From Bacteroidota bacterium (GTDB lineage: Bacteria > Bacteroidota > Bacteroidia > Bacteroidales > GCA-2748055), in assembly GCA_020047715.1 (NCBI GenBank), contig JAIFNN010000069.1, forward strand, positions 1-48,003: a DNA stretch of 48,003 bases, read 5' to 3'. This document shows positions 14,125 through 46,872 of this stretch, piece by piece. A program made the translations under genes and the position numbers. The notes beneath the pieces are model-generated. The model did no database searches. It was not told the DNA's origin and worked only from the letters and a program-made list of their open reading frames with translations. The stretch's first letter is position 1; each line of letters opens with the position of its first letter.

Positions 14125-14949
14125 CTACTGTGCAAACAGCTTTCTAAGACTAAGAAAAAGTCGCATTAGCAGGTAAATGCACACCAGGCTGAATATTATG
14201 GTTGCCCCGCTTGGAATGTTGAGGAAGTAGGAAATAACCAGTCCGCAAAGCGATCCCGCAAAACCAATGAGAATTGAAAGGAATATTATCTTCTTGTAAT
14301 CTTTGGTTATGAGATTTGCGGCGTTTTGGGGAATGGTAAGCATCGACAGCAAAAGGATGATTCCAACCAGCTTAATGTTAAAAACAATTGTGAGCGATAC
14401 CAGCGCCATGAGGCTGTAATTGATAAATCCCACATGCAGGTTCAGGGATGAGGCATACTCCTGGTCGAAGGAGATATACTGAATCCTTCGGAAGAAAAAC
14501 GAAAAGAACAGGATTATAACAAGGGTTAGGGCAAACAGCATATAAAGATCGGAAGAGTTAACCGTAAGGATGCTCCCGAAAAGATAGGTCATCAGGTTAG
14601 GGGCGTATCCTGGGGTAAGGTAGATAAATATCACCCCAATGGCCATCCCGAGCGACCACACCATGGCAATTACCGAGTCGTTGCGGATGTTCCCCTTGCG
14701 GGTGAAATACTCGATTCCGAGACCGGAAAGGACCGAGAACATTGCCGCTCCCCAAACGGGGTTGAAGCCAAGAAAATACCCGATTCCAATTCCTCCAAAA
14801 GAGGTGTGGGTAATACCTCCGCTTATAAAAACGATTCGTCTGGAAACAACATAGGTGCCCGTTATACCACAGCTTATTGCCGCCAAAAGGGAAGCCAGAA
14901 TTGCATTGGTGAAATACTGGTAATGAATTAATTCGAAAATACCTTCCAT
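14125..14949 (-). CDS. znuB: Zinc/manganese-type ABC transporter permease
   Basis: This 274-residue ABC-3 family permease has about eight membrane helices (YFTNAILASLLAAISCGITGTYVVSRRIVFISGGITHTSFGGIGIGYFLG at 11-60 is the family's opening; VFNIKLVGIILLLSMLTIPQNAANLI at about 187-212). Its ATG overlaps the znuC stop by one base (TAATG), which indicates translational coupling. It is the last gene of the zur-yidD-znuA-znuC-znuB series. Zn2+ is favoured over Mn2+ because of the upstream Fur-family gene and the His-rich binding protein, but the specificity remains inferred. Confidence 0.93.
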   Translation of the reverse strand: MEGIFELIHYQYFTNAILASLLAAISCGITGTYVVSRRIVFISGGITHTSFGGIGIGYFLGFNPVWGAAMFSVLSGLGIEYFTRKGNIRNDSVIAMVWSLGMAIGVIFIYLTPGYAPNLMTYLFGSILTVNSSDLYMLFALTLVIILFFSFFFRRIQYISFDQEYASSLNLHVGFINYSLMALVSLTIVFNIKLVGIILLLSMLTIPQNAANLITKDYKKIIFLSILIGFAGSLCGLVISYFLNIPSGATIIFSLVCIYLLMRLFLSLRKLFAQ

Positions 14950-15713
14950 TATTTGGGTTTTATATGTTCCTGCAAAACTCTGTGGGGCACCGGTCCATGG
15001 GCAATTATATCGATCGGGCAGTTATATACATTCAATTCCTCGGCATTGATTTCGTTTGAAGGATGATAGTGGAGACTCCCGTTCACGCATGCAATGGTTT
15101 TGATATAGCTCGAAATGGTGCCGATATCATGCGAAACCAGCAGGATTGCAATATTTTTATTCAGTTCTTTCAGGGTCTCGTACAGCTCAAACTCTGCCCG
15201 GTTATCAACATAGGTGCTGGGCTCGTCGAGAATGAGCAGGCGGGGATTGGATATTACGGCCCTTGCCAGGAAAACCCGCTGCAGTTGTCCACCGGAAAGT
15301 TCGCCTACCGGGTTTTGGGAAATGCTGCCAAGACCTGATTTCTCAAGCAACTCGTCGGCTTTCTTTTTATCTGCGGATGAGAACCTGAAAATAAGCGGCT
15401 TTTGGGAGGTCAGGCCGGAAAGCACTACCTCCCTTACGGAAATGGGGAATTTCTTGTCGATTAGATTTTGCTGCGGAAGGTAACCGATGTATTTTTGGAA
15501 ATCATTTGGTTTTCCGGGAAAGTGATAAACAATTTTGCCATGTAAGGGTTTTATTACCCCCAAAACAGCTTTCATCAGCGTGGTTTTCCCCCCTCCGTTC
15601 GGGCCAATGATCCCAATAAAATCGGTATCGTGTACCTGGAAATTGATTTTCTTCAGAACGAGGTTATCGTCGTACCCGGCATCCAGATTTTTTATCTCAA
15701 GTATTTTGCTCAT
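14949..15713 (-). CDS. znuC: Zinc-type ABC transporter ATPase
   Basis: The ATG at 15713 (MSKILEIKNLDAGYDDN) is preferred to the TTG at 15749 in the track, because ABC domains begin at this point and the additional 12 residues have no family match. Motifs: Walker A GPNGGGKTTL (about 38), the Q-loop in YLPQQNLID, signature LSGGQLQR (about 138), Walker B RLLILDEPSTYVD (about 158), and H-loop LLVSHD (about 193). The 254-residue length is normal. It lies 150 bp after znuA and is coupled to znuB. A spacing of 150 bp leaves room for an internal promoter, but none is evident. Confidence 0.94.
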   Translation of the reverse strand: MSKILEIKNLDAGYDDNLVLKKINFQVHDTDFIGIIGPNGGGKTTLMKAVLGVIKPLHGKIVYHFPGKPNDFQKYIGYLPQQNLIDKKFPISVREVVLSGLTSQKPLIFRFSSADKKKADELLEKSGLGSISQNPVGELSGGQLQRVFLARAVISNPRLLILDEPSTYVDNRAEFELYETLKELNKNIAILLVSHDIGTISSYIKTIACVNGSLHYHPSNEINAEELNVYNCPIDIIAHGPVPHRVLQEHIKPK

Positions 15714-15863
15714 TCCTAGTATAAGTCGTTTATCGCATTTATTCTTCAAAACCTTAGTTCAACATCCCGAATGGAATCTTTTTTTGCCTTTTCTCAGACC
15801 TGCTCTTATTTTCGAAACAGCCCTGGACAAAGCATTTCGCTAATCCCCATGGGATCTGAAACA

Positions 15864-16745
15864 CTATTTATTTGCCAGCAGATGGTTAAGTATTTCAATC
15901 ATTTGTTCTTTCCATTGTTCGTCCATAGGGTCGATCGGGATTATCTCTGCATTGATTTCTTTTGCCAGTGAACGAGAGTTGTCGAGGCTGAACTGTTTCT
16001 GGACAAAAATGAATCCTATTTTTTTTTCTTTTGCCAGATCGATTATAGCCTTGATATGCGCGGGAGGGGGCTCTTTCCCTTCAAATTCAAGAACGATTTG
16101 TTCCATGCCATAATCCCTTGCCAGATAGGCGAGGGCCGGGTGATATATAATAAAACTCCGTCCTTTCAATTTGTCGGCGTTTAGGTTGTAAAGCGCCTGT
16201 ACACTATCAATCGTCATCATAAAGGAATTGTAGTTCGACCTGAAAACGGCTGAGTCTGAAGGATAGATTTTGTTCAGGGACTTCAGGATGTTTGTGGCGA
16301 TGATTTTTACATTCCCCGGCGACATCCATGTATGCGGGTCGATTCCTGTCTCATTTTCCTCTGAATGAATATGCCCGGCTTCTTCGTGGTGTTCGCATTC
16401 GCCTGCAATCAGGTCAATTCCTTCTGAAAGGTCGAAAAGCTGCATCTCCGGGTTTACTCCCCCGAAACGAGGCATCCAGGCTAGCTCAAAATCGAGATGG
16501 CCAATTTTAAGATAGGCCTGAGAATTCACTAAAAGATTCATTTGCCTTGCGGTAGGCTCATAGCTCGAATGCGAAGCCCCGGGCGGGATCATCACATTTA
16601 CCTTAATCCCCTCTCCGGCAATAGCCTCCACGAAGTATTTCTGGGGGAGTACACTAACCGAGACCGCCTTGGCGGGTTTGATTGGAGCGGGACTGTTGCA
16701 CGAAGATAATGTGAAAATAAGGGCGGGTATAAAAAAGATTCTCAT
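15864..16745 (-). CDS. znuA: Zinc ABC transporter substrate-binding lipoprotein
   Basis: I start at the ATG at 16745 (MRIFFIPALIFTLSSC), which gives a lipobox LSSC and avoids overlap with yidD; the longer track ORF would put a hydrophilic stretch before the signal. The mature protein keeps metal ligands of cluster A-I (ZnuA/TroA) binding proteins: the H in GASHSSYEPTARQ, H in IGHLDFE, a His/Glu-rich loop (GECEHHEEAGHIHSEENETGIDPHTW) typical of zinc-specific ZnuA, and H in IYHPALAYLARDYG. It captures Zn2+ outside the inner membrane and hands it to ZnuB. The His-rich loop is the best evidence for zinc over manganese. Confidence 0.93.
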   Translation of the reverse strand: MRIFFIPALIFTLSSCNSPAPIKPAKAVSVSVLPQKYFVEAIAGEGIKVNVMIPPGASHSSYEPTARQMNLLVNSQAYLKIGHLDFELAWMPRFGGVNPEMQLFDLSEGIDLIAGECEHHEEAGHIHSEENETGIDPHTWMSPGNVKIIATNILKSLNKIYPSDSAVFRSNYNSFMMTIDSVQALYNLNADKLKGRSFIIYHPALAYLARDYGMEQIVLEFEGKEPPPAHIKAIIDLAKEKKIGFIFVQKQFSLDNSRSLAKEINAEIIPIDPMDEQWKEQMIEILNHLLANK

Positions 16746-16758
16746 TGATTTTGGTTTT

Positions 16759-17115
16759 TTAAGAGTTATGACTGTTGCCATCATGATGATGACCGCTATG
16801 TTTAGCTTTATTCTTAAGGTTCGCTAAGGAGGTCCCTTTTTCGGGGACGGGATCAAAACCGTGTCCGCCCCAGGGATTGCAGCGGACAATCCGGTATATT
16901 CCAAGTATCAAACCTTTTATGGGTCCATGGACTTTTAGCGCCCCGATGGCATACTGGGAGCAGGAGGGGTTAAAACGGCACGAGTTGGGGAGCAGGGGGG
17001 ATATCGAAAGCTGATAGAATTTCACAAGCAGTATGAATATCCCGGTAAAAAACCAGGAAATCCCTTTGGAAAGAGGGTTTTCAAAAAGCAGGGAAATTAT
17101 TCTAGTCTTGTTCAT
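16759..17115 (-). CDS. yidD: YidD membrane protein insertion efficiency factor
   Basis: YidD is a small peripheral membrane factor that helps YidC-mediated insertion. This 118-residue ORF carries the invariant core [54 protein letters not shown] (about 38-90), with the three conserved cysteines. It has an unusual tail, [17 protein letters not shown], rich in histidine, which the family does not require. The start overlaps the zur gene by 14 bp and the stop is 13 bp before znuA, so it is embedded in the zinc operon rather than beside rnpA/yidC. The start at 17115 gives a hydrophobic N-terminus ([16 protein letters not shown]). Confidence 0.93.
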
Positions 17116-17518
17116 TTAGGCAGTTTTTGCATATTCCAAAAATGATGAACTGGTTCTCCAGTTTTGTGAAACCCTCAGGGAGTTTGTAATCATCTACCGA
17201 AAGCTCTTCCATGCAGAAAGTGGTGTTGCATCTTCTGCATTCAAAATGCACATGGTCGGATTTTTTCCCGTCTTTGTTTTTCCCACTTGCAAGTTTGTAC
17301 TTAACAGCCTCGGCTGATAATATCCGGTGGACAATCTTTTTTTCCACGAGGGAATTGAGGTTTCGGTATACGGTCGTCCGATTGCAACTCCCGTTCATCA
17401 GGTATTCCAACTCTTTTTCGCTGATAGCCTGTTTGCAGTTTGAAAGTATGCTCAACAATTCTATCCTGTGGGAGGTGAGGCTAAGTTTACTGCTCTTTAG
17501 TATCTCTTTGTGATCCAT
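17102..17518 (-). CDS. zur: Fur-family metalloregulator, probably Zur
   Basis: The ATG at 17518 ([22 protein letters not shown]) gives a normal 138-residue Fur-family protein; the track's extra 47 N-terminal residues are non-conserved and run across the operator. The winged helix includes [28 protein letters not shown] and [18 protein letters not shown] (recognition helix TTVYRNL). The metal-binding half has [18 protein letters not shown] and a C-terminal [15 protein letters not shown], i.e. two CxxC pairs for a structural zinc. The Fur HHxH-type site is reduced to HVHFECRRC. Being the first gene of the znu series, with a palindrome 9 bp before its start, it fits an autoregulated zinc repressor. 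Confidence 0.9.
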
Positions 17519-17526
17519 GATGTAAT

Positions 17527-17547
17527 ATTTGCAACAGACTTGCAAAT
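17527..17547. promoter_or_regulatory. Zur/Fur-type operator, perfect 8-5-8 inverted repeat
   Basis: ATTTGCAA, five bases (CAGAC), TTGCAAAT. The inverted repeat is exact and ends 9 bp upstream of the zur start codon. Location and symmetry fit a binding site for the dimeric regulator itself, giving zinc-dependent repression of the whole zur-yidD-znuACB unit. The divergent phosphofructokinase gene starts 240 bp away and is unlikely to be controlled by it. Confidence 0.8.
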
Positions 17548-17787
17548 TTAAGCATTCCCGGAAATTATTTAGACGTTTTCTATCTGTTTTTTTAAAAAGA
17601 TATCTCCATCTTTGTGCTCGGAAAAACGATCGGGTAACAGATTCAAACATTAAAAGCAAATTCTCTTACAGATTGTTCAAAATAATGGCAAATGAAACCC
17701 ATATGATTGGTTGCAGCTCAAAAGCAACCCTATAATAAAAAATCAGCTGTGGTTCAGTTATACCATTAAAATCAAAATTATTATATA

Positions 17788-19047
17788 ATGAATAAAAAAG
17801 TAATATCAGAACCAATGAAAGAAGCAGTTGCAATTTTATGCGCAGGGGGACCTGCTCCGGGAATAAACACAGTTATAAGTTCCGTTACGAAGATATTTCT
17901 TCAGAATGGCTTTCAGGTATTAGGCTTGAATGGCGGGTACAAATCCCTTTTTTCGGCTGAGCCTGCATTCGATTATCTCGATTTTGAGTATGCCGACCAG
18001 ATTTACAGCAGGGGAGGGTCAGCGCTTAAGATGAGCCGTTACAAACCAAAGGATGACGAGTTCAAAGTGGATTTCTTCCGCAGGAACAACGTTAAAATTC
18101 TCGTTACCATTGGGGGAGACGATACCGCATCCACAGCGAACCGTTTGGCTAAATATCTGGCCAGCCAGAAAATGGATGTGGCGAATATTCATGTTCCAAA
18201 AACAATCGACAACGATCTTCCGCTACCCGAGGGAACGCCCACATTCGGATATCATTCAGCCAAGGAAGAAGGAGTGAGGCTTGCGTCCACCATTTATGAG
18301 GACGCCCGCACCAGCGGTAACTGGTTTGTGGTATCCGCCATGGGTCGCGAAGCCGGGCATCTTGCATTCGGGATCGGTACAGCATGCCACTACCCGATGA
18401 TTATCATTCCCGAGATGTTTGACAAAACGAAAATCACCTTTGAGAAAATCACCAATCTGGTAATTTCTTCGATGGTTAAAAGGCGTTTGTTGGGTATTGA
18501 TTATGGGGTTGCGATTATTTCAGAAGGCGTTTTCCATTTTATGAGCGACGAGGAGATTATTGCTACCGGTATCAACTTCACCTACGATGATCACGGTCAT
18601 CCGGAGCTTGGTAATGTAAGCAAGTCGCACATATTCAATATGTTGGTTCAGCAAAAGTTAAAGACCCTGCGAATAAATGTAAAGAGCCGTCCCAACGAGA
18701 TGGGGTACGAACTTCGCTGCTGCAGGCCCATTGCTTATGATTTGAATTATGCCACCCGCTTGGGACTCGGTGTTTATAAGCTGTTTAGAAAGGGAGTTAC
18801 GGGTTGTATGGTTACAATTGATCGTGCCGGCGAGATCACTCCGCTTTTTCTCAAGGATGTTGAAGACGAAAATGGCAAGGTAAAGCCCCGACTGGTAAAC
18901 ATCAACGCCGAAAAGGTTCAGTTGATCTATCGTAACAATCTTCACTTCATTACCCCTGCGGATTATCGGGGAGCAAAGAAATTTGTTCAGAATCCTGAGG
19001 AGTTTGATTTTTACAAGATTCTTAACTGGAACGAAACCGAAAGCTAG
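17788..19047 (+). CDS. 6-phosphofructokinase, pyrophosphate-type signature
   Basis: This 419-residue PFK phosphorylates fructose 6-phosphate in glycolysis, or runs in reverse. The start has CAGGPAPGINTVISS (18-32). GGDDT at 109-113 and PKTIDND at 137-143 carry the Asp and Lys that mark pyrophosphate-using enzymes, where ATP-PFK have GGDGS and PGTIDND. MGREAGHLAFGIG (about 190) is the sugar-phosphate binding MGR-x-AG. It is followed by a strong terminator and a second PFK of a different subgroup. PPi dependence is inferred from these two residues. The start at ATG 17788 follows an AT-rich leader with no obvious consensus promoter. Confidence 0.92.
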   Translation: MNKKVISEPMKEAVAILCAGGPAPGINTVISSVTKIFLQNGFQVLGLNGGYKSLFSAEPAFDYLDFEYADQIYSRGGSALKMSRYKPKDDEFKVDFFRRNNVKILVTIGGDDTASTANRLAKYLASQKMDVANIHVPKTIDNDLPLPEGTPTFGYHSAKEEGVRLASTIYEDARTSGNWFVVSAMGREAGHLAFGIGTACHYPMIIIPEMFDKTKITFEKITNLVISSMVKRRLLGIDYGVAIISEGVFHFMSDEEIIATGINFTYDDHGHPELGNVSKSHIFNMLVQQKLKTLRINVKSRPNEMGYELRCCRPIAYDLNYATRLGLGVYKLFRKGVTGCMVTIDRAGEITPLFLKDVEDENGKVKPRLVNINAEKVQLIYRNNLHFITPADYRGAKKFVQNPEEFDFYKILNWNETES

Positions 19048-19172: not shown

Positions 19173-20378
19173 ATGCCAGATTCCAAACGCAAAAGAGGAA
19201 CAATCGCCATTCTTACAGGTGGCGGCGACGTGCCGGGATTAAATCCGGCCATCAGGGCGATAACCATCAGGGCTCTCAGGGAAGGTTACCGGGTGTTGGG
19301 ACTTCGCAGAGGCTGGGCAGGAATTATGGAGCTTCAGCGCGACAAAGATGCCGACAACAGTGATAACTATCAGTATTTAAGCGAGGAAATAGTTAATAAA
19401 GCGGGGAGAACAGGCGGGACTTTTCTGCATACCTCAAGAACAAGGCCCAGCCATGTCCCGAAAGATATGGTGCCCGACCATCTGCAGTCGGTCTATTCAG
19501 ACGACATAAACGATTTGACTCCCGAGGTGCTGAAGAACCTCAGTTTTCTGGGAGTGGATTTTCTTATCCCCATCGGCGGCGACGACACCCTTTCCTATGC
19601 CGTAAGGATGTACCAGGAAGGGGTTAAGGTTATTGCCATACCCAAAACCATGGACAATGATGTTCCGGGAACCGACTATTGCATAGGATTCAGCACATGT
19701 GTTACCAGAACCATCAATATGACAAATACGCTTAGGACTTCGGCCGGATCCCATGAGAGAATTCTCGTGCTTGAAGTTTTCGGAAGATATGCCGGGTTTA
19801 CAGCCATGTTGCCTACTATGGCCGGGGCGGCTAACCGATGTGTAATACCGGAATACAAGTTTGACATTGACAAGCTGACTCGTTTGTTGGTGGAGGACCG
19901 TAAGAATAATCCCAGCAAATATTCTGTGGTTTTGGTGTCGGAAGGGGCTACTTTTTCCGGCATGGAAGAAATGATGTTTCGACAGAAGGAAAAAGACATG
20001 TATGGACATTCCAAACTTGGAGGAATTGGTGAAGCCGTTTCTGGAAAAATAAAGGAGATTTCCCCGCAATACAATAATGGCAAGGCCGTTAATGTAATTA
20101 CCCAGCAATTGGGGTATCTGGTAAGGGGAGGAGATCCGGATTCTATTGACTCTATCGTTCCCATGGCTTATGGGAACCTGGCGCTGGACCTTGTTCTCAA
20201 GGGCATCCATGGAAGGCTTGTTGTGCTTCGGAATGGCCGTTACGACAATGCACCGCTGGATGTGGTAACATCTTCGAAAAAGTTGGTGGATCTGAAAAAA
20301 TATTATAACACCGATCGCTACCGACCTCATTATAAAAGCTTTGAGTTTCAGCCTTTGTTTATTATGACGGGGTCGTGA
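19173..20378 (+). CDS. Second 6-phosphofructokinase, pyrophosphate-type signature
   Basis: This 401-residue PFK starts RGTIAILTGGGDVPGLNPAIRAI (8-30). GGDDT is at 135-139 and PKTMDND at 157-163, again with the Asp/Lys pair typical of PPi-dependent enzymes. FGRYAGFTAMLP (about 204-215) holds the R-x-AG sugar-phosphate motif. It is clearly a different PFK subgroup from its neighbour: GGGDVPG replaces GGPAPG and the N-terminal domain has a longer insertion. The two probably differ in regulation, direction or substrate (for example sedoheptulose 7-phosphate), but that is inference. It is transcribed from its own start after the upstream terminator. Confidence 0.93.
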   Translation: MPDSKRKRGTIAILTGGGDVPGLNPAIRAITIRALREGYRVLGLRRGWAGIMELQRDKDADNSDNYQYLSEEIVNKAGRTGGTFLHTSRTRPSHVPKDMVPDHLQSVYSDDINDLTPEVLKNLSFLGVDFLIPIGGDDTLSYAVRMYQEGVKVIAIPKTMDNDVPGTDYCIGFSTCVTRTINMTNTLRTSAGSHERILVLEVFGRYAGFTAMLPTMAGAANRCVIPEYKFDIDKLTRLLVEDRKNNPSKYSVVLVSEGATFSGMEEMMFRQKEKDMYGHSKLGGIGEAVSGKIKEISPQYNNGKAVNVITQQLGYLVRGGDPDSIDSIVPMAYGNLALDLVLKGIHGRLVVLRNGRYDNAPLDVVTSSKKLVDLKKYYNTDRYRPHYKSFEFQPLFIMTGS

Positions 20379-31498: not shown

Positions 31499-34400
31499 AT
31501 GAAAACTATTATCCGCAGCAGAAAGAAGATTTGTGCTTTTCTTTTCCTTTTTGTTTTTTCTATAATGCTTCCGGCCAGCGTTTTTTCGCAATTGTCGGGC
31601 ATAAAAACCATTAATCCATCGGGGGGCGATTTCGTTAGTTTTACTGCTGCTGTAAATGCGCTGGCTTCTCAGGGTGTTAGTGGTCCTGTGGTTTTCAACG
31701 TTGCTGCTGGAACCTATACCGAACAGGTTATCATCCCTGAAATTGTCGGAGTCAGTGCAGTGAATACCGTTACTTTCCAGTCATCTACCACAGATTCCTC
31801 TCTAGTTGTTCTTTCCTTCAGTGCTGCACTGGCGGCATCCAATTACACTCTCCTCCTTAACGGTAGCGATTTTATAGTTTTGCGTAAGATCACCATACAA
31901 GCTCTGGGCAGCACTTATGGGAGGGCTATTGAAATTGCCGGAACTGCTTCCAGCGTGATTATTGAGAACTGCCGTCTTATCGGTTTCAATTCAACCGGGG
32001 GATATTCAGAGCATTCCTTAATCTACAGTTACCGTGTACCATTAGCTAAGCTCACTGTAAGAAACAATCTTTTCTCGGGTAGTAATTATGGTATTTACCT
32101 CGAGGGAGTCAATTCAACCACTCTCACACCTGAAACACGAATTTCGGGTAACAACTTTTCCAGTCAGCGCTTATACGGAATGCACCTCGAGAGTCAAAAT
32201 GCCCCGGTTGTAAGCTCAAATACCATACAGTTGAAATCCGATGCGGGCTATGGCATATATATGCAATATTGTGATAACGCCCTGCTTGTCGAAAAAAACA
32301 ACATTATCCTCCCCGGTGGGCATTATGGCATCTACCTGTATTTATGCGACGGGAATTCATTGGCTCGTGGACTTGTGGTGAACAACACAGTTGCCATCAC
32401 TGGCGGCAGCAACGCATCGGGTATTCATTACAATGGCTCAAGCTATCAGAATATCTGGCATAATTCGGTGCAACTAACTGGTGTAACCACCAGTGATTTT
32501 GGTGCATTTTATCTTACCGGTGGATCCAACACCGATATCCGGAATAATATTTTTTCCAATGCGGGCGAAAATTATGCCTACAACATTAAAACTCCTTCTG
32601 CCATTGAGTTTTCCGACTATAACAATTATTATTCCAACGGGAATTTTTTAGCCTTCTGGGGCAATAAAAGGGAGGATCTAGCCCAGCTGAAAGCTGCTCA
32701 GTCGCCTCTTTACGATGCGAATTCCATTTCCTTTAACCCGGTATTTGTTTCTGCAACTGATCTTCACGGGGGATCGTTCAGGATCGACAACAAGGGTACC
32801 AACCTGGGAATTACCAAGGATATGGATGGGCAGACCCGAACAGCTTTTGATATTGGGGCCGATGAATTTGCCGGAACCGGCTCTGCTCTTGCTGCCGGAA
32901 CCTATAGTATTGGTGGAGTATCGCCCTCTTTCGCCAGTTTCGTGCAAGCCGCAGCTGTTTTAAATACCTATGGCATATCCGGGAACGTCACGTTCAATGT
33001 GCGCAATGGTACTTATGACGAGCAGTTTACTTTAAGTCCGATTGCTGGCACAGGCCCTTCTGCCCAGGTTATTTTTCAAGCAGAAAGCGGCGATTCTACA
33101 AAGGTTGAGCTTTCCTTTAATTCAGGAAATCTAAACAACTATCTTGTGCGCTTTAGCGGGGCCGATTATGTGACCTTCAGAAAACTTAGTCTTACAGCCC
33201 TTAATCCGACCTATTCGAGAATATTCCTGTTTGATGGTAGCTCCCATAACAATACAATCACTTCTTCGATCCTGAACGGTCAGCCTTCCGGTTCAACTTA
33301 CGATGCCCTGATTTACTCCTATGAAAGCAATGCAAACAACCTTACTATTACCTGGAATCTTTTTTCCGCCGGACGTTATGGGGTTTACCACAATCCAAAC
33401 TCCCTTTCCAAAGCAACAGGTCTGATAGTTCGAAAAAACAATTTTTCCTCTCAGAGGGGCAGTTACCCGAATAGCATTTACCTTCGATATCATATAGCCC
33501 CAGACATACAGTCCAACACATTTACAAACACTCTTGCTACAAATTATTACGCTATTAACCTTCAGGATTGCAACGATGATATCAAGGTTATATCCAACAG
33601 GGTTAACTCGAATAACTCAGAGGGCGGAATTTTGCTCAATGCCTGTAAATCAATAAGCACAAAACGAGGCTTGGTGGCAAACAATTTCGTTGCCATTAGC
33701 GGATCTTCAAATGCTTGGGGCATTTATCTGTATAATTCCGAGTATCAGAATATCTATTATAACTCGGTTCGTATAAGCAGTTCACATCTTTCCAATGGAA
33801 GGGCTTTTTACAATGCAGCCAACTCGAATAACATCAACCTGCGTAACAATAATTTTACAAATTTCGGAGATGGTTATGCCTTTTACAGCGAGGGCACAAC
33901 GGTGAATTTTGCATCCAACTATAATAATCTTTACTCAACGGGCATATACCCTGTTTTTTGGAACGGTACATCTCACAGTTCGTTGTCTTCCTACCAGACA
34001 GCTGCCACACTCGATGCTAATTCCTTTTCGGTTAATCCGGTTTATCTTTCCGAGACCGATCTTCATGCGCAAAGTTCGTTTGTGAATAATGCAGGAACTC
34101 CTCTTGTTGAGGTTCTTTCCGATATCGACGGACAAAACCGAAATGCAGCAACACCCGACATCGGTGCCGATGAGTTCATTCCTACCTTGTTGCCTCTGTC
34201 TGCAGGTACATATACCATTGGTGGTGTATCACCCAGCTATCCGAACTTTACTGCAGCAGTCAGCGACCTTAACAACCGTGGGGTATCCGGCCCTGTGGTT
34301 TTCAATGTGCGCAACGGGATCTATAATGAACAAATCTCCTTGTATGAAATTAACGGTGCCTCATTGGTTAACAACATCCTTTTCCAGTCAGAGTCGGGCG

Positions 34401-37400
34401 ATTCCAGCAAAGTAGAACTTACTTTCTCGGCAAACATTAACAATTCGCATATTGTGCAACTCTCAGGCACTGATTACATAAGTTTCCGCAAACTAACATT
34501 TACAACTTTGAACCCCACTTATTCCAAGATTTTTAATTTGAGGGGAGGCATCCGAAAACTAAGCATTCAGAACAGTGTGCTCAATAGTAACGGCTCCACC
34601 GGAGCTGAATATTACACTTCGGCTATCTATTCTGAAAATGCTACCTTCACTGATCTTCTTATCGAAAACTCCATTCTAAATGGAGGTAGATCGGGGATAT
34701 GGATGGAAAGTCCACTGGCTGCTCAGAGTGTCGGAACCCGGATTCTCAGCAACCGCTTTACCGGACAAAATTACGACGGTCTTTACCTGAAGTACCACGA
34801 GGCAGCGAAAATTGAGAGAAACAACATTGTCAATACAACCGCTTATGTCTATTTCAATGGAATTTACCTTTCCTATTGCAACAACGATATCCTGATAAAC
34901 CGAAATTCAGTCACAGCACCTTCAGGACGTTATGGGATTTTTCTGCAATATTGTTCGGGAAACATCTCCAAAACCGGTTTGATTTCGAACAACATAGTAG
35001 AGACAGGAGGCACTGGAGGTTCAATAGCTATAATTCTTGAGAACAGCAATTATCAAAGGGTATATTTCAATTCTTCGAATGTAACAAGCACCGATGTTAA
35101 CGGCGGTTCAGGATTCACTGTAACCGCAGGTTCAAATATCGATATTCGCAATAACAGTTTTGCGAACTTTGGAGGAGGCTGGGCATACACAACGAATTCT
35201 GTTACTGCAATCACCGGTTCCGATTATAATAATCTTTTCACCACCGGCAACTTTTTAGCCAACTATAACGCCCCAAGTCGTGATCTTGCTAGTTTCAAAG
35301 CTCTAAGCGGAAAAGAGGCCAATTCAATCTCAGTAAACCCGGTATACACAGCCCTTATCCGAACCACAAGTTCGTACCTTAACAATAAGGGCTCTGCTGT
35401 TGGGGTGGTTACAACTGATATTGATGGCGAGTCCCGAAGTGTTGCTACACCCGACATCGGTGCGGATGAGTTTGTGCCCAGTCAGTTACCTTTTGCCGGA
35501 ACTTTTACAATTGGTGGTACTTCACCCGACTTTGTCTCTTTCAGCGCTGCAGCAACAGCTCTTAACGAAAGGGGAATTTCCGGGCCGGTAACCTTCAATG
35601 TAAGGAACGGAGTTTACACCGATCAACTGGATCTCATGGAAATAAGTGGAGCAAGCGCCATAAACAAGATTGTTTTCCAATCTGAGTCGGACGATTCCAC
35701 TAAAGTTACCCTGAACTTCAATTCCGGGTCAGCATCTACCAATTTTGTTGTCAGGTTGATTGGAACCGACTTTCTGACTCTCCGAAAACTCACCATCGCA
35801 GGAACCAATCCCGTTTATAGTAATCTTATAACATTAGTCGGGAATGTAAGTCAGGTAAATATCCTGAACAATGTTCTAAGCTCAAATATAAATGCATCTT
35901 CCACTGCTATTTCCTCCCCCGATGGGAATGTCCTTAATGCCATCGCTATAAAGAATAACAATTTCCTTAGTGGGAGCGTAGGTATTTTTCTCGACGGAAA
36001 CAATTCTACGCAATCTCCGGGTTTGGAAATAAGTGGGAATAAATTCAATAATCAGAGGAGTTATGGTATACGTCTCGATGCTTTCGAAAGTCCACAAGTG
36101 AAGGCAAACGACTTGTACAGTAACATCTACGGTTACGAAGGGATTTACCTCTATAATTGCAATACCAAACCCGATGTTTCCGGAAATCGAATTTTCACAG
36201 AAAACCTTTCGACGGGAATAACCCTTTACTATTGCTACGGTACCCTTGTTAATCAGGGGATTGTTTCCAATAATTTTGTATCGATCGCAGGCAGCTCTTC
36301 CGCAACTGGTATTCAGATTAACACAAGCCAATACCTTAACGTAGTTTATAATTCAGTTAGCATTACATCCACATACAATGCACCAGCTTATAAATCTGCT
36401 TTTTACCTTTCAGGTGGTGACAATGTTTTTGTCAGGAACAACATTTTCTCCTGCTCAAACGGAGGCTATGCCTATAATGTAAACACTCCTGCTGCAATTG
36501 ACGGCTCAGATTTCAACAACTTGTATTCAACTTCAGACCTGGCAGTTTGGGGAGGTGTGAGATCCAACCTTGCCGCTCTTCGAACAGCTAACGCTATGGA
36601 TGCCAAATCACTTTCTGTAAACCCCGAATTTGCTTCTGTAAGCGATTTGCAAGTGAAGCAAGCTCTCTTGCACAAAGCGGCAACTCCTTTGGCTATTGTG
36701 ACAACGGATATCTTCGGAAACCTGCGTGATGCAATCAAGCCTGATATTGGGGCAACCGAGTTTTCCTGTGTTACGCCGGTGATAGACTTCTTTGCATCCT
36801 CGTCGTGTTTTGGCGACAGCACTGAATTTTCCTACAATATTACCAAGGTTGCTTATGGTTCAAATTTCAGCTTTGACTTCGACAACGACTTTAATCCGGA
36901 CGAAACTTTTAGTTCTCCCAATGGGATTATTAAGCATCTTTTTGCCACGTCCAGCCCAAAAACGGTAAACCTACTAGTTTCTCAGCTTGCCGGTTGTAAC
37001 AACTCTATTGCCAAAACTATTTCTGTGGAGCCCTCGCCGGTTTTGGATGTGATTACAGAAGGTGCATATTGTGGCAACGATAACGGTTCAGCGTCAGTTA
37101 ATGTGTCAGGCAGCAGTGGACCTTTCAGCTACCACTGGTCAAACGGAAGCGATGACACCAATGTTATTGGCCTTGCCAAAGGAAGCTATTCTGTTACCGT
37201 AAAAAATAGTGATAATTGCATCAGCACAACAACTTTTGAGATAGGTGACAAGATCATTGTTTCAGCCAGCGAACTGAGTCCATCAACCTGCGGTCAGTCT
37301 GATGGTAGTGCAGTAGCAACCGCAACAGGTGGATCTGGTCCGTATAGTTATGTGTGGTCAAATGGGGAAAGTCTTGCAACTGCAGTGAATTTGCCATCAG

Positions 37401-39013
37401 GTGCTAATTATATAACGGTTACAGATGGAACAGGATGTTCCACTGTAGGGTCGGTTAACATCAGCACTGATGCTTCAGGACCCAAGATTGCTCTCAAAAC
37501 GGTTACCCACAATATCTGCTACGGTGAAAAGATGGGGGTTTTGGATATTACTCTAACCGGAGGAACAACACCCTACAGTATTCAGTGGTCGAACGGGGAG
37601 ATTACAGAAGACTTGTCAAATCTAGGATCGGGTATATATGATATTTTGGTAACGGACAATACAGGATGTTTGGCAACGGCAACTTTTGGGATTGAACAGC
37701 CAGTTTTCCTCAATGTCTCGACTGTCGTAGAGGATGCCAGTTGCAGTGGTTCTGATGGAAAAGCAGTTGCCTTGGCTGGTGGTGGCGCAAAGCCTTACTT
37801 TTATCAGTGGTCGAATGGTAACACGGGACCTGTTGCTCAGAATCTCTCTGCAGGGATTTATACCCTCACCCTTACCGACAATAAAAACTGCTCTATTGTA
37901 ACCCCGGTAATTGTAAATAACTCAGGAGGCCCCAAAGTTTCCTTGAATAGTCTAACAGGAGTTAATTGCAACAATGAATCTACCGGTTCAATTGACATTC
38001 AGATCAGCGGTGGCACTCCCCTGTATTCCTATTCATGGTTACCCGGAGGTCAAACCTCGCAGGACATCACCGGACTTAATGAAGGCAGTTATGAAGTAAG
38101 TGTTACAGATAATGCCGGATGCATAGGGGTAAGCAGCTTTGTGATTGGAGAAGAATCCCCGGCAACCAACCCGATTTGTCTTGTAACTGTCGACAGTATT
38201 TCAGGGAAGAACCTTGTTGTTTGGGAAAAACTGAATCAGGCAGATGCGGCCTTCTACAACATCTACCGGGAAAGCTCCTCCAAAGGTTTATTTCAGCTGA
38301 TTGCCACCCGGCCAGCTGAAGAAATTTCAGAGTTTACTGATGAGATTGCAGATCCATCGCTCAGATCGTGGCGATATAAAATATCCGTGGTGGACGATTG
38401 TGGTAATGAATCCGATTTGAGCGAGTCGCATAAAACGATTCACCTTACACAGAATATAGGGCTTAATGGCAGGGTAAATTTGATCTGGGATAAGTACGAG
38501 GGATTTACAGCCAACAGTTACAAAATTCTGCGCTACTCAAAAGAGGAGGGTTGGATAACTCTTGGCAGAATTCCTGGCGACCTGTCCTCATTTACCGATG
38601 ACAAGGCTTTGCTGGAAGAAGAGTTATTCTATGAAATCGAAGTTGAAAATCCCAGCGGAGGCTGCTCCACCCTAAAAGCCAGCACCCACAACACTTCGAG
38701 ATCGAACCGTCAGAGCACCACAGTAAAGAATACTACGGGCATTTCGGTAAATGAGAGTCTGAAATCCCTTACGATTTATCCCAATCCGGCAAAAACGGAG
38801 GTCACCCTCGAGCTGAATCAGAAAAACCTGCAAAAGCTTGCAGTGGAACTAATTGATGCAAAAGGGCAAGTCTTGAGGAACTACCAGTACCCGGCCAGCT
38901 CCGACGAGTTCCGCACCACCATTGATATAAGTGGTATCAGCGAGGGTGTATATGTTTTGAGGATAAGCAGCGACACTAATATCAGCTTCAGGAAACTAAT
39001 TATACAGCCATAA
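31499..39013 (+). CDS. Giant T9SS-exported cell-surface protein with beta-helix and SprB repeats
   Basis: This 2504-residue protein starts with a signal peptide (MKTIIRSRKKICAFLFLFVFSIMLPASVFSQ). Residues about 33-1755 are four tandem copies of a roughly 430-residue module, each opening with a (G)T(F/Y)TIGG.SP.F..F..A...LN..G(I/V)SGPV-type segment, a right-handed parallel beta-helix core and an end (D)IG(A)DEF; starts are near 33, 460, 897 and 1327. A PKD-like segment (about 1757-1846), five SprB-type repeats (1847-2217, each with YxWSNG...L..G.Y.V.VTD..GC), two fibronectin-III-like segments and a C-terminal T9SS type A sorting domain (YPNPAKTEVTLEL..., about 2422-2504) follow. It is likely an adhesin or glycan-binding/processing protein anchored at or released from the outer surface. 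No catalytic motif is visible in the helix cores. Confidence 0.93.
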   Translation: MKTIIRSRKKICAFLFLFVFSIMLPASVFSQLSGIKTINPSGGDFVSFTAAVNALASQGVSGPVVFNVAAGTYTEQVIIPEIVGVSAVNTVTFQSSTTDSSLVVLSFSAALAASNYTLLLNGSDFIVLRKITIQALGSTYGRAIEIAGTASSVIIENCRLIGFNSTGGYSEHSLIYSYRVPLAKLTVRNNLFSGSNYGIYLEGVNSTTLTPETRISGNNFSSQRLYGMHLESQNAPVVSSNTIQLKSDAGYGIYMQYCDNALLVEKNNIILPGGHYGIYLYLCDGNSLARGLVVNNTVAITGGSNASGIHYNGSSYQNIWHNSVQLTGVTTSDFGAFYLTGGSNTDIRNNIFSNAGENYAYNIKTPSAIEFSDYNNYYSNGNFLAFWGNKREDLAQLKAAQSPLYDANSISFNPVFVSATDLHGGSFRIDNKGTNLGITKDMDGQTRTAFDIGADEFAGTGSALAAGTYSIGGVSPSFASFVQAAAVLNTYGISGNVTFNVRNGTYDEQFTLSPIAGTGPSAQVIFQAESGDSTKVELSFNSGNLNNYLVRFSGADYVTFRKLSLTALNPTYSRIFLFDGSSHNNTITSSILNGQPSGSTYDALIYSYESNANNLTITWNLFSAGRYGVYHNPNSLSKATGLIVRKNNFSSQRGSYPNSIYLRYHIAPDIQSNTFTNTLATNYYAINLQDCNDDIKVISNRVNSNNSEGGILLNACKSISTKRGLVANNFVAISGSSNAWGIYLYNSEYQNIYYNSVRISSSHLSNGRAFYNAANSNNINLRNNNFTNFGDGYAFYSEGTTVNFASNYNNLYSTGIYPVFWNGTSHSSLSSYQTAATLDANSFSVNPVYLSETDLHAQSSFVNNAGTPLVEVLSDIDGQNRNAATPDIGADEFIPTLLPLSAGTYTIGGVSPSYPNFTAAVSDLNNRGVSGPVVFNVRNGIYNEQISLYEINGASLVNNILFQSESGDSSKVELTFSANINNSHIVQLSGTDYISFRKLTFTTLNPTYSKIFNLRGGIRKLSIQNSVLNSNGSTGAEYYTSAIYSENATFTDLLIENSILNGGRSGIWMESPLAAQSVGTRILSNRFTGQNYDGLYLKYHEAAKIERNNIVNTTAYVYFNGIYLSYCNNDILINRNSVTAPSGRYGIFLQYCSGNISKTGLISNNIVETGGTGGSIAIILENSNYQRVYFNSSNVTSTDVNGGSGFTVTAGSNIDIRNNSFANFGGGWAYTTNSVTAITGSDYNNLFTTGNFLANYNAPSRDLASFKALSGKEANSISVNPVYTALIRTTSSYLNNKGSAVGVVTTDIDGESRSVATPDIGADEFVPSQLPFAGTFTIGGTSPDFVSFSAAATALNERGISGPVTFNVRNGVYTDQLDLMEISGASAINKIVFQSESDDSTKVTLNFNSGSASTNFVVRLIGTDFLTLRKLTIAGTNPVYSNLITLVGNVSQVNILNNVLSSNINASSTAISSPDGNVLNAIAIKNNNFLSGSVGIFLDGNNSTQSPGLEISGNKFNNQRSYGIRLDAFESPQVKANDLYSNIYGYEGIYLYNCNTKPDVSGNRIFTENLSTGITLYYCYGTLVNQGIVSNNFVSIAGSSSATGIQINTSQYLNVVYNSVSITSTYNAPAYKSAFYLSGGDNVFVRNNIFSCSNGGYAYNVNTPAAIDGSDFNNLYSTSDLAVWGGVRSNLAALRTANAMDAKSLSVNPEFASVSDLQVKQALLHKAATPLAIVTTDIFGNLRDAIKPDIGATEFSCVTPVIDFFASSSCFGDSTEFSYNITKVAYGSNFSFDFDNDFNPDETFSSPNGIIKHLFATSSPKTVNLLVSQLAGCNNSIAKTISVEPSPVLDVITEGAYCGNDNGSASVNVSGSSGPFSYHWSNGSDDTNVIGLAKGSYSVTVKNSDNCISTTTFEIGDKIIVSASELSPSTCGQSDGSAVATATGGSGPYSYVWSNGESLATAVNLPSGANYITVTDGTGCSTVGSVNISTDASGPKIALKTVTHNICYGEKMGVLDITLTGGTTPYSIQWSNGEITEDLSNLGSGIYDILVTDNTGCLATATFGIEQPVFLNVSTVVEDASCSGSDGKAVALAGGGAKPYFYQWSNGNTGPVAQNLSAGIYTLTLTDNKNCSIVTPVIVNNSGGPKVSLNSLTGVNCNNESTGSIDIQISGGTPLYSYSWLPGGQTSQDITGLNEGSYEVSVTDNAGCIGVSSFVIGEESPATNPICLVTVDSISGKNLVVWEKLNQADAAFYNIYRESSSKGLFQLIATRPAEEISEFTDEIADPSLRSWRYKISVVDDCGNESDLSESHKTIHLTQNIGLNGRVNLIWDKYEGFTANSYKILRYSKEEGWITLGRIPGDLSSFTDDKALLEEELFYEIEVENPSGGCSTLKASTHNTSRSNRQSTTVKNTTGISVNESLKSLTIYPNPAKTEVTLELNQKNLQKLAVELIDAKGQVLRNYQYPASSDEFRTTIDISGISEGVYVLRISSDTNISFRKLIIQP

Positions 39014-41414: not shown

Positions 41415-41975
41415 TTGAAAATCTATATTCAAAATATGGTTTGTATCCGTTGCAAAATGGTTGTTAAATCGGAGTTTGAAAAACTTGGTTTGCATTATGT
41501 CAATGTTGAATTGGGTGAGGCAACTATTAAAGAGGATATCACACCGCAACAATTGAAACTTCTCAGCAAGAATCTCAAAAAGACGGGATTGCTTCTAATG
41601 GATGATAAAAAAAGCATTCTGGTTGAAAAAATAAAACTGATTATTATCGAGTTGGTTCACTATACTGAAGATCAGATCAAAGTAAATCTTTCCGATTTTA
41701 TCAGCGAGAAACTTAATTTTGATTATAGCTATTTGTCCAATTTGTTTACTGAAGTCAAAGGAACCACCATTGAAAATTATTACCTGGCTCACAAGATCGA
41801 AAGAGTAAAAGAACTTATCGTTTATGATGAGCTTAACCTTTCTGAAATTGCATATAAAATGCATTACAGCAGTGTAGCGCATCTTTCCAACCAGTTCAAG
41901 AAAATTACAGGGCTTACACCATCCCATTTCAAAAATCTGAAGCACAAAAGACGCAGATCATTGGGCGAGCTCTGA
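41415..41975 (+). CDS. HMA-like/AraC-type transcriptional regulator 1
   Basis: The start is a TTG at 41415 (KIYIQNMVCIRCKM). I accept it because the paralogue at 43125 begins with the same KIYI-x-x-M from a GTG. Residues 1-65 have a ferredoxin-like HMA pattern: MVCIRC is an exact MxCxxC metal-binding motif, followed by a helix, strand LHYVNVELGEATI and a second helix. After the linker MDDKKSILVEKIKLIIIELVHY come two AraC-type HTHs: LSDFISEKLNFDYSYLSNLFTEVKGTTIENYYLAHKIERVKELIVYDELNLSEIAYKMHYSSVAHLSNQFKKITGLTPSHFKNLK (about 93-180). Probably a DNA-binding activator sensing metal or thiol state; that part is inference. Site B overlaps its stop codon. Confidence 0.88.
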   Translation: MKIYIQNMVCIRCKMVVKSEFEKLGLHYVNVELGEATIKEDITPQQLKLLSKNLKKTGLLLMDDKKSILVEKIKLIIIELVHYTEDQIKVNLSDFISEKLNFDYSYLSNLFTEVKGTTIENYYLAHKIERVKELIVYDELNLSEIAYKMHYSSVAHLSNQFKKITGLTPSHFKNLKHKRRRSLGEL

Positions 41976-43124: not shown

Positions 43125-43721
43125 GTGAAAATCTACATTAAATACATGGTCAGCAATCGGTGTAAAATGCTGGTGAAGGAAGAGTTGAAAAATCTCGGTC
43201 TTCACTTTGTTCTTGTTGATATGGGCGTAGCCGAGGTAATGGAAAATATTACTGATGTGCAGCGTGAAGAGCTCAAAGCTGCATTGTTGAGATCCGGCCT
43301 TGAGCTTATGGATGATAAAAGAGCAGTCCTTATCGAGAAAATAAAAAATGTGATTATTGAAATGATTCATTATACCGATGAAGTCCCTAAAATTAATTTT
43401 TCAGATTACCTGAGTGAAAAATTGGAGTACGATTACACCTACCTCGCAAACCTCTTTTCTGAAGTTCAGGGAACAACCATTGAGAGATTCATTATTTCGC
43501 ACAAAATAGAGCGGGTTAAAGAGCTGATTATTTATGATGAAATGAATTTAACTGAAATCGCATGGAAAATGCATTATAGCAGTGTTGCTCATTTGTCCAA
43601 TCAGTTTAAAAAGCACACCGGACTTACCCCTTCCCATTTTAGAAATTTAAAGAACAAAAGGCGCATTCCGATAGAAGAAATTGGCATTACAGAGAAAGCC
43701 GATACAACCGATAATTTTTAG
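43125..43721 (+). CDS. HMA-like/AraC-type transcriptional regulator 2
   Basis: The start is a GTG at 43125 (KIYIKYMVSNRCKM), aligned with regulator 1. It is a paralogue with the same order: HMA-like domain, MDDKRAVLIEKIKNVIIEMIHY linker and two HTHs (IERVKELIIYDEMNLTEIAWKMHYSSVAHLSNQFKKHTGLTPSHFRNLKNKRR). In this copy MxCxxC has become MVSNRC, so the first metal-binding Cys is lost. The 198 residues include a longer C-terminus than regulator 1. It lies 7 bp after the small membrane gene and 13 bp before the hybrid kinase. Identical core HTH segments (KMHYSSVAHLSNQFKK) suggest both bind the same DNA element. Confidence 0.88.
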   Translation: MKIYIKYMVSNRCKMLVKEELKNLGLHFVLVDMGVAEVMENITDVQREELKAALLRSGLELMDDKRAVLIEKIKNVIIEMIHYTDEVPKINFSDYLSEKLEYDYTYLANLFSEVQGTTIERFIISHKIERVKELIIYDEMNLTEIAWKMHYSSVAHLSNQFKKHTGLTPSHFRNLKNKRRIPIEEIGITEKADTTDNF

Positions 43722-43734
43722 GAGGCTTATAAAA

Positions 43735-46700
43735 ATGGAACGTACCAAAACCCATGGATCGCAATATGCCAGCAGTCTTATTGAAGCAAGTCTTGACCCG
43801 TTGGTAACAATAAATACCGAGGGAGAAATTACGGACATGAACCGGGCAAAAATTCTTATAACCGGAATGGAACGCAACGAGCTCCTGGGCACAAGTTTTT
43901 TCAGCTATTTCACCGAACCGAAGAAAGCACAACAGCTATATTTGGAGGTGTTTTCCAACGGAGTATTTTCGAGTACTCCTTTGACCATCCGACACAAAAA
44001 TGGCAGTTTGACAGATGTGTTGTTCAATGGGTCGATTTACAAGGATGGCAAAGGAAATGTTGTTGGAGCAGTGCTGGTGGCACGCGATACATCTGAACAA
44101 AAATGGGCAATAGAATTACGTGCGGCAAACAAGAAACTTGCTTTTCAAAATGATGAGAAGGAAAAAAGGGCTCAGGAACTGATCATTGCAAATAAGGAAC
44201 TCGTATTTCAAAACCAGGAGAAAGAAAAAAGAGCTGCTGAATTAATCATTGCAAATAAAGAACTTGCCTTTCAAAATAAGGAAAAGGAAAAGCGGGCTTC
44301 CGAGCTAAGTATCGCAAACAAAGAGCTCGCATTTCAGAATAATGAAAAGGGAAAAAGAGCGGGGGAATTGATCATTGCAAACAAGGAGCTTGTATTCCAA
44401 AATTCCGAAAAGAAAAAGCGGGCTGATGAACTAATCATTGCTGATAGGGAGCTTGACTTTCAGAACAAAGAAAAAGACAAGCAGGAAAAAGCAAATAGCG
44501 AACTCAGGGCATACAGTAATTCGGCAAATCTCGCTTCTCAGTATTCACTCAGTCTTATTGAAGCCAGTCGCGATCCACTTATAACAATCAGTCCCGAGGG
44601 AAAGATTACAGATATGAATGAAGCTCTGGCGAAAATTACAGGGATATCCAGGGAGAAACTTACCGGCACAGACTTTTTCGAATACTTTACCGAGCCAAAA
44701 ATGGCCAGAAAAGTGTATAAAAAAGTTTTTGCCAAGGGATCTGTGGCCGACTCTCCGCTTACGCTTCGTCATAAAAACGGTAAGCTTACCGATGTTTTGT
44801 TTAACGGATCGGTTTATAAGGACGACCGCGGCAATGTTATGGGTGTAGTGATAGTTGCAAGAGATGTAACGGCTCAAAAGGTCGCTTCGCACTATGCAAG
44901 GAGCCTTATTGAAGCAAGTCTTGACCCCCTTTTTACTATTAGTCCTGCAGGCAAAATCACCGACATGAATAATGCCTCTGTGAAAATCACGGGCGCGCCA
45001 CGCGAAAAATTAATAGGCTCAAACTTCTTCGACTATTTTACCAACTCCAATAAGGCAAGAAAGGTTTACAAGGAGGTCTTTGCCAAGGGTTTTGTTACTA
45101 ATTATCCGCTAACGATCAAAGACCATAAATTAACTGATGTTCTTTTCAATGGATCGGTTTATAAAGATGAACAGGGCAATGTGCTTGGCGCTGTTGTAGT
45201 TGCAAGGGACATTACCGAACAGAAAAGAGTGGCCAATGAACTTACAGAGGCCATTGTTTTTGCTGAACTGGCGACAGGACTGGCAGAGGATGCGAAGAGG
45301 AAAGCCGAAAAGGCTACCCAAATTGCAGAAAATGCAGTGAAGGCCAAACAGCAGTTCCTTTCCAATATGAGCCACGAGATCCGCACACCGATGAACGCTA
45401 TTATCGGGTTCACAAAAGTGGTTCTGAAAACAGACTTGTCAGCCAAACAAAGAGAATACCTGACAGCAATAAAAATGAGTGGGGATTCACTGATCGTGCT
45501 TATCAACGACATACTCGACCTGGCAAAAGTTGATGCAGGAAAAATGACCTTTGAAAAAGTCCCTTTCAAAATGGCCTTGTCCATTTCGGCAATGATTCAT
45601 TTATTTGAAACAAAAATTCAGGAGAAAAATTTAAAGCTTTTTAAGGAATATGATTCAAAGATTCCTGAAGTATTGGTTGGTGACCCTGTTCGTTTGCACC
45701 AGATAATTTTAAACCTTGTAAGCAACGCAGTAAAATTCACCAATAAGGGAAATATTACTGTAAGTGTTCGCTTGCTAAGTGAGGATAGCGAGAAAGTAAT
45801 TATTGAATTTTCTGTGAAGGACACCGGGATTGGTATCGCAGAGAATAAAATCGATAAGATATTTGAAAATTTCCAACAGGCATCAAGCGCCACTGCCAGG
45901 TTATACGGGGGTACTGGATTAGGCCTGGCCATTGTTAAGCAGTTGGTAGTACCGCAAGGCGGCACTATCTCTGTATCGAGCAAAATCGACAGGGGATCCG
46001 TGTTCAGTTTTGTACTTCCATTCTTAAAAACAAAAGCAGAAGCAGAGGAAGAACCCGGCGTTGAGGAACCGGATATGGAACCAAAAGATATCAAGGTGCT
46101 GGTGGTTGAAGACATTGCTCTAAATCAACTGTTAATGAGAACGTTACTTGATGATTTCGGATTTGAATGCGACATTGCAGCCAATGGGAAAATTGCGATC
46201 GATAAGCTTCAGTCAGCCCATTATGATATTGTGTTAATGGATTTACAGATGCCGGAAATGAACGGGTTTGAAGCAACGGAATATATCCGGAACAAGCTTT
46301 ACTCAAAAATTCCGATAATTGCTCTTACAGCGGATGTGACAACAGTTGATCTGGCCAAGTGCAGAGCTGTAGGAATGAACGATTATATTGCAAAGCCTGT
46401 GGATGAGCGATTGTTATACAGCAAAATTAACGAGTTGGTTAAGAAAAAACTCCTCCTTGCAAAAGCTAAAGATGATAATATCCTTACAGTCAAGCAGGTT
46501 AAATGCACTGATATGGGTTATCTGATGAGCCGAACAAAATCCAATCCGGAATTAATGATGCAGATGATTACGCTTTACCTGGAGCAAACACCGCCTTTAA
46601 TCAGCTCTATGAAAAAAGCTTTACGCGATAAGGATTGGGTGCTATTGCATGCAAGCGTGCATAAAATGATTCCTTCCTTTGCAATTGTGGGTATTAATCC

Positions 46701-46872
46701 AGACTTTGAAACCCTTGCAAGAAAAGTCAAGGATTATGCCGGGACTCAGTTAATGATTGAAGATGTTTCCGAAATTGTTCTTCAGATTGAAAAAGTCTGT
46801 GTTCAGGCATGTGTTGAGTTGCAAGAAGAGTTCAATAATATTAAAAAAAAGCAAAATGGTTCAGGAAAATAA
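43735..46872 (+). CDS. Hybrid sensor histidine kinase: PAS x3, coiled coil, HisKA-HATPase, REC, HPt
   Basis: The ATG at 43735 follows GGAGG, so I reject the track's upstream extension. The 1045 residues read: PAS 1 (about 8-122), a six-fold 21-residue coiled coil (127-252), PAS 2 (267-382), PAS 3 (384-500), HisKA with FLSNMSHEIRTPMNAII (His about 545), HATPase with LNLVSNAVKFTN and YGGTGLGLAIVK (to about 770), receiver VLVVEDIALNQ...DIVLMDLQMPEMNGFEA (785-905) and a C-terminal HPt (about 930-1030), whose VHKMIPSFAIVG carries the phospho-His. No membrane helix: it is a cytoplasmic phosphorelay kinase. Its 3' end overlaps the response regulator by 17 bp. Confidence 0.95.
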   Translation: MERTKTHGSQYASSLIEASLDPLVTINTEGEITDMNRAKILITGMERNELLGTSFFSYFTEPKKAQQLYLEVFSNGVFSSTPLTIRHKNGSLTDVLFNGSIYKDGKGNVVGAVLVARDTSEQKWAIELRAANKKLAFQNDEKEKRAQELIIANKELVFQNQEKEKRAAELIIANKELAFQNKEKEKRASELSIANKELAFQNNEKGKRAGELIIANKELVFQNSEKKKRADELIIADRELDFQNKEKDKQEKANSELRAYSNSANLASQYSLSLIEASRDPLITISPEGKITDMNEALAKITGISREKLTGTDFFEYFTEPKMARKVYKKVFAKGSVADSPLTLRHKNGKLTDVLFNGSVYKDDRGNVMGVVIVARDVTAQKVASHYARSLIEASLDPLFTISPAGKITDMNNASVKITGAPREKLIGSNFFDYFTNSNKARKVYKEVFAKGFVTNYPLTIKDHKLTDVLFNGSVYKDEQGNVLGAVVVARDITEQKRVANELTEAIVFAELATGLAEDAKRKAEKATQIAENAVKAKQQFLSNMSHEIRTPMNAIIGFTKVVLKTDLSAKQREYLTAIKMSGDSLIVLINDILDLAKVDAGKMTFEKVPFKMALSISAMIHLFETKIQEKNLKLFKEYDSKIPEVLVGDPVRLHQIILNLVSNAVKFTNKGNITVSVRLLSEDSEKVIIEFSVKDTGIGIAENKIDKIFENFQQASSATARLYGGTGLGLAIVKQLVVPQGGTISVSSKIDRGSVFSFVLPFLKTKAEAEEEPGVEEPDMEPKDIKVLVVEDIALNQLLMRTLLDDFGFECDIAANGKIAIDKLQSAHYDIVLMDLQMPEMNGFEATEYIRNKLYSKIPIIALTADVTTVDLAKCRAVGMNDYIAKPVDERLLYSKINELVKKKLLLAKAKDDNILTVKQVKCTDMGYLMSRTKSNPELMMQMITLYLEQTPPLISSMKKALRDKDWVLLHASVHKMIPSFAIVGINPDFETLARKVKDYAGTQLMIEDVSEIVLQIEKVCVQACVELQEEFNNIKKKQNGSGK
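44113..44490 (+). repeat. Six 63-bp direct repeats coding for a 21-residue coiled coil
   Basis: Inside the hybrid kinase the 21-residue unit EL(I/R)(I/A)ANKEL.FQN.EKEKRA repeats six times in register (residues 127-252). Each unit is exactly three heptads, with A, L and F at core positions. It joins PAS 1 to PAS 2 and should transmit a signal as a continuous coiled coil whose length can change by repeat slippage without breaking heptad phase. Confidence 0.9.

Follow-up and report, generated by a model that had tools for sequence, protein, structure and literature searches.

A conserved palindrome ahead of a zur-like gene in Bacteroidota is a probable operator of a zinc-uptake operon

A 21-letter palindrome, ATTTGCAACAGACTTGCAAAT, lies at positions 17527-17547 of the 48,003-nucleotide stretch of Bacteroidota DNA analyzed here (the window), just ahead of a gene for a zur-like Fur-family regulator, and the question raised by this locus is whether the repeat is the site through which that regulator controls the metal-uptake genes behind it. 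Our comparisons make it very probable that the adjacent Zur-like repressor uses the palindrome as its operator and through it controls zur-yidD-znuA-znuC-znuB, the metal most likely being zinc; the initial annotation had likewise proposed a zinc-uptake operon headed by zur and autoregulated through this site, and the conservation of the box with zur and its absence without zur support that proposal. The repeat has the exact 8-5-8 form described there, and the spacing between box and start codon, given as 9 bp, counts to 8 bases (zur ATG at 17518-17516, minus strand). The window holds six perfect 8-5-8 inverted repeats, and chance alone would give one match to the palindrome with at most three mismatches in each such window; the 8-5-8 geometry alone is not beyond chance, and with six such repeats in the window, palindromy by itself was dropped as an argument. 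Since such repeats are not rare here, the case for an operator rests on comparison. The consensus obtained from related loci, TTTGCAACnnnGTTGCAAA, spans 17528-17546, and the window box agrees with it at 15 of 16 positions.

Table 1. Features of the predicted zinc-uptake locus and its flank
Feature	Position	Strand	Basis
Predicted -7 promoter element TAAATTTG (Bacteroidota TAnnTTTG)	17543..17550	-	Direct sequence; overlaps left arm of box as read from zur
Predicted operator (Zur-type box) ATTTGCAA-N5-TTGCAAAT	17527..17547	.	Exact match; conserved 5' of zur in family relatives, absent without zur
zur-like Fur-family regulator, 138 aa, HxHFxCxxCx4C and C-terminal CxxC	17102..17518	-	PF01475, 35.3 bits; AlphaFold model
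yidD, 118 aa, His-rich tail	16759..17115	-	PF01809, 97.6 bits
znuA, metal-binding lipoprotein, His-rich loop ECEHHEEAGHIH	15864..16745	-	PF01297, 186.6 bits
znuC, ABC ATPase	14949..15713	-	PF00005; best NCBIfam match AztA zinc transporter model, below cut-off
znuB, ABC permease, ATG overlapping znuC stop (TAATG)	14125..14949	-	PF00950, 233 bits
Phosphofructokinase-family gene, divergent, PPi-type by best match	17788..19047	+	PF00365; NF041103 below cut-off; synteny

The regulator gene comes first in the order zur-yidD-znuA-znuC-znuB and is divergent from a phosphofructokinase (PFK) gene, which serves as a marker of the locus in relatives and is not a predicted target. The junctions listed in the initial annotation are all correct: a 14-bp zur-yidD overlap (17102-17115), a 13-bp yidD-znuA gap (if znuA is taken to begin at 16745, the ATG of the lipoprotein), and the TAATG shared by znuC and znuB; omitted from it were the 150 bp that separate znuA from znuC (15714-15863), in which a simple scan found no terminator-like site. 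The other junctions in the window are overlaps or short gaps, and the zur-yidD-znuA order is conserved in relatives; the five genes are probably carried on one transcript that runs across the 150-bp gap. The window's yidD is the sole copy found in the genome, placed inside the zinc operon and bearing a His-rich tail that recurs in another genome of the same genus (G001; HSGHHHGDCNHNS); yidD stays beside znuA in relatives that lack zur, and some zur operons in other families contain it too (L187 and L025). On the divergent side, a second phosphofructokinase-like gene (19173-20378) follows the first in tandem.

As read from zur, the left arm of the box coincides with a sequence that fits TAnnTTTG, the -7 consensus of Bacteroidota promoters (PMC7366714), and this overlap is common to the family orthologs that have the box. 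A sigma-70-type promoter scan was uninformative for this region. The left arm doubles as a predicted -7 element, and the right arm alone is, by this reading of the sequence, purely operator. Published work on Bacteroidia translation (PMC9976891) states that their ribosomes fail to recognize Shine-Dalgarno sequences, which would allow a box at this short distance from the start codon without conflict with a ribosome-binding site.

The comparison in question sets genomes of the same family with zur against those without it. The box is present in all nine same-family genomes that have this zur gene, matching 13 to 15 of the 16 consensus positions, in genomes whose Zur is 39 to 91% identical to the window protein; its position before zur is constant, and most of the remaining intergenic sequence has diverged. 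Ten other genomes of the family, nine from genus g2 and one from g5, retain the PFK gene and the yidD-znuA-znuC locus without zur, and their PFK-yidD intergenic regions contain no box (best 8 to 11 of 16). In most zur-less relatives the -7 element persists in the absence of the box: TAnnTTTG is present in 8 of these 10 intergenic regions. A second genome collection, with species partly shared, gave the same picture, with the box in 5/5 genomes with zur and 0/13 without it, and the -7 element kept in 10 of the latter. These genomes cluster by genus, so that the independent events behind the counts are few and the pattern fits gain and loss of zur alike. Because the palindrome is conserved with zur and absent where zur is absent, it stands beyond chance. 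The box follows the regulator, and the contrast between the two groups separates the putative operator from the predicted promoter; with zur present at this locus in some genera and missing in others, the family offers a natural experiment on operator versus promoter. It is therefore very improbable that the palindrome is a promoter only, that is, TAnnTTTG with a chance second arm and no regulator bound: the coincidence of the left arm with the -7 element and the six perfect 8-5-8 repeats in the window would suit such a reading, yet the right arm, which lies outside the promoter, is conserved where zur is present and missing from the zur-less genomes that keep the -7 element.

The same genomes bear on whether the site might belong to another regulator. 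The window's genome has two further Fur-family genes, of the classical Fur/PerR type (G000:C61 and C225), and Fur-family operators can resemble one another. A family-wide PF01475 search found the divergent Zur type absent from the zur-less genomes and classical Fur/PerR-type proteins present in them; these box-less relatives thus have the proteins in question, and across the class the box adjoins genes of the divergent subfamily, which leaves ownership by one of the two classical proteins with very little probability. The same search found one efflux-type protein in another g2 genome (G020). Genome G006 has, in addition to the zur-like gene of its znu operon, a second, truncated one with its own box (L093; G006:C28, near the contig end).

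The regulator is a divergent Fur-family protein, most likely a Zur-like repressor of Bacteroidota. It passes the curated cut-off of the Fur domain (35.3 versus 23.1 bits for PF01475), and its AlphaFold model (pLDDT 86) has a winged helix and a dimerization-domain fold whose best PDB match is zinc- and DNA-bound E. coli Zur (4mtd), with PerR and Fur close behind (E about 1e-7 for these top matches). It is not filed as an E. coli-type Zur equivalog, because it scores 35.6 bits against a cut-off of 167 for the NCBI model PRK11639. A structural zinc site of two CxxC pairs, which is usual but not universal in the Fur superfamily, is present (C94, C97, C130, and C133, invariant in alignments A1 and A2). 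The Cys ligand before HxH, typical of characterized Zurs but not strictly defining, is missing: no Cys occurs within 18 residues upstream of HVH in the window's clade, where an invariant C102 after the CxxC may replace it. The conserved metal-site residues are thus arranged differently from those of canonical Zur; given this arrangement and the score far below the Zur cut-off, zinc specificity is presumptive.

That the adjacent regulator uses the site while sensing manganese, iron, or some other metal, in an mnt/sit-like operon, is unlikely. Specificity is not safely readable from sequence, no metal-specific NCBIfam model scores above cut-off for the uptake genes, and the best NCBIfam match of the substrate-binding protein is MntC, far below its cut-off (94.7 versus 400). 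Zinc is favored over these metals by the best ABC matches, the AztA/AztB zinc transporters (likewise below cut-off), by the Cys in the predicted regulatory site, and by the presence of the same motif elsewhere in a zur-queD operon and ahead of genes for ZIP and COG0523 proteins and for zinc-type efflux. It is also favored by ZnuA: a His-rich loop is a zinc-type feature of that protein, and the loop found here points to zinc.

Searches across the class Bacteroidia linked the motif to this Fur subfamily more widely. Next to genes of the subfamily, the pattern TTTGCAAC-N3-GTTGCAAA occurs about 18 times as often as expected: 43 box matches (at least 13 of 16 positions) adjoin the regulator, where 2.35 would be expected from the remainder of the same 134 loci, which were found by protein similarity alone, the consensus TTTGCAACnnnGTTGCAAA itself being derived from the loci under comparison. 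The count of 134 leaves out loci found by the motif itself; in a slightly larger set that includes them, a consensus with shuffled arms averages 0.17 matches beside the regulator. A scorable box is present at 39 of the 134 loci, so at the others the motif appears to drift or to sit elsewhere. A strict form of the motif occurs at 14 places in 393 genomes of the order, and the reversed pattern at none. Its neighbors, named by BLAST against reference loci and by reading of the sequences rather than by curated models, include zur-znuA, zur-ZIP, zur followed by TonB-receptor-like genes, and zur-queD-yidD, as well as ZntA-like ATPases and Fur-family genes followed by czcA; for one or two of these places no link is evident. 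A promoter-anchored search placed the box ahead of a gene for a COG0523 GTPase, amid many matches without such a link, and a one-mismatch pattern search in 100 genomes returned mostly background. The suggestion in the initial annotation that the motif is a searchable Zur box is borne out in other families, where it retrieves zur-like and other metal-transport genes, and the result is a usable recognition motif, tested by comparison, for operators of zinc regulation in Bacteroidia. At four loci (L289, L294, L295, and L304), two boxes about 38 bp apart lie 5' of the regulator, some of them facing a divergent TonB-receptor-like gene.

The reach of the box within the window's own genome seems to be narrow. 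The initial annotation had looked to other zinc genes for further boxes and had named copies at many unrelated places as evidence that would speak against the site. In other families the motif does stand by further metal-transport genes; among the near matches read in this genome, no wider regulon appeared. The counter-evidence that it named did not appear, the palindrome having one exact copy in the 3.78-Mb assembly (87.6% complete). Among the near matches read, a partial inspection of sites one to three mismatches from the box or its core, none is a convincing second target at a zinc-gene promoter, and most lie inside coding frames or away from recognizable zinc genes. One site (L358; G000:C9) resembles the zur promoter and was set aside because no recognizable zinc gene adjoins it. 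The best reading is a single operator that would serve the local operon.

What the sequence shows directly is the operon order and the site itself, with its conservation, its overlap with a promoter motif, and its absence from genomes without zur; from these features we infer DNA binding, repression, and zinc as the metal. With the metal (most likely zinc) plentiful, a metal-loaded dimer would bind the two TTTGCAA half-sites and cover TAAATTTG and the predicted transcription start, which would switch off the whole zur-yidD-znuA-znuC-znuB transcript, the regulator included; when zinc is scarce, the dimer would be released, and the uptake system and its repressor would be made together in a negative feedback loop. 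A box over the -7 element of zur-yidD-znuACB has the sequence anatomy of a promoter box at zinc-uptake genes.

Autoregulated operons in which zur lies together with znuABC are known in other bacteria (PMC6103462). Like those described for the Zur proteins of Pseudomonas, Paracoccus, and Streptomyces, the present locus joins a Fur-fold regulator to a zinc ABC importer, with a palindromic operator over the regulator's own promoter and self-feedback, both as predictions here (PMC6103462). It differs from them in its operator sequence (TTTGCAACnnnGTTGCAAA), in a box that overlaps a Bacteroidota -7 element rather than a -35/-10 promoter, and in the inclusion of yidD. E. coli Zur is about 24% identical to the window protein, which has two CxxC pairs, as well as being its best fold match; in contrast, the window protein falls far below the equivalog cut-off and lacks the Cys before HxH, and its operator does not resemble the Zur box of E. 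coli. Another divergent member of the Fur family in Bacteroidota is PgFur of Porphyromonas gingivalis, which reportedly binds the hmu promoter and has no His-rich regulatory motif, whereas HxH is retained in the window protein, whose gene lies with znuACB; the distinction is drawn from the published description of PgFur rather than from its sequence (PMC6613475). A review of Zur regulons makes no mention of Bacteroidetes (PMC6103462), and no described Zur box for Bacteroidota or Bacteroidia was found in the open-access library searched, a scope that lies outside RegPrecise and does not prove absence.

The operator proposed for the window is an ordinary kind of switch, and the more novel lead is a group of related regulators linked to efflux. 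In a quick tree (145 columns, many forks poorly supported), the efflux-linked regulators form one clade of 30 rows (SH-aLRT 97) that is sister to the window's Zur. Where a box is found in this clade, it lies mostly just downstream of the regulator, ahead of efflux genes, and 7 of 16 boxes so located overlap a -7 element. At eight loci (L030, L033, L038, L048, L189, L196, L197, and L198), the same box precedes genes for CzcCBA or ZntA-like P-type ATPases, often in the interval between these and the gene for a Zur-like regulator. The sister clade carries an extra Cys before HxH that is absent from the window's clade but common to many other relatives. A tentative reading, which we hold at somewhat less than an even chance, is that one Bacteroidia Fur lineage split into a Zur type on zinc uptake and a sister clade redeployed to efflux (czcCBA, ZntA-like ATPase, and CDF) with the same operator. 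If so, the efflux branch would need an inverted metal logic (an apo-repressor or a metal-dependent activator), and genomes holding both branches would have to prevent cross-talk; the shared box poses the question of how one DNA site serves regulators of uptake and of efflux. Corynebacterium glutamicum Zur has been tied to efflux genes, which it represses at low zinc (PMC6103462); there a single Zur uses a different, direct-repeat site, whereas the Bacteroidia have a separate sister clade with the same palindrome.

Elsewhere in the window, two similar proteins (41415-41975 and 43125-43721) have, by eye, a metal-binding-like N terminus (MVCIRCKM and MVSNRCKM) and an AraC-like C terminus, and the second precedes a large sensor kinase (43681-46872) with repeated coiled-coil-like units, also recognized by eye. 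A predicted surface protein of 2504 aa (31499-39013) consists of repeated blocks and ends in a segment that, by eye, resembles the Bacteroidota C-terminal sorting domain.
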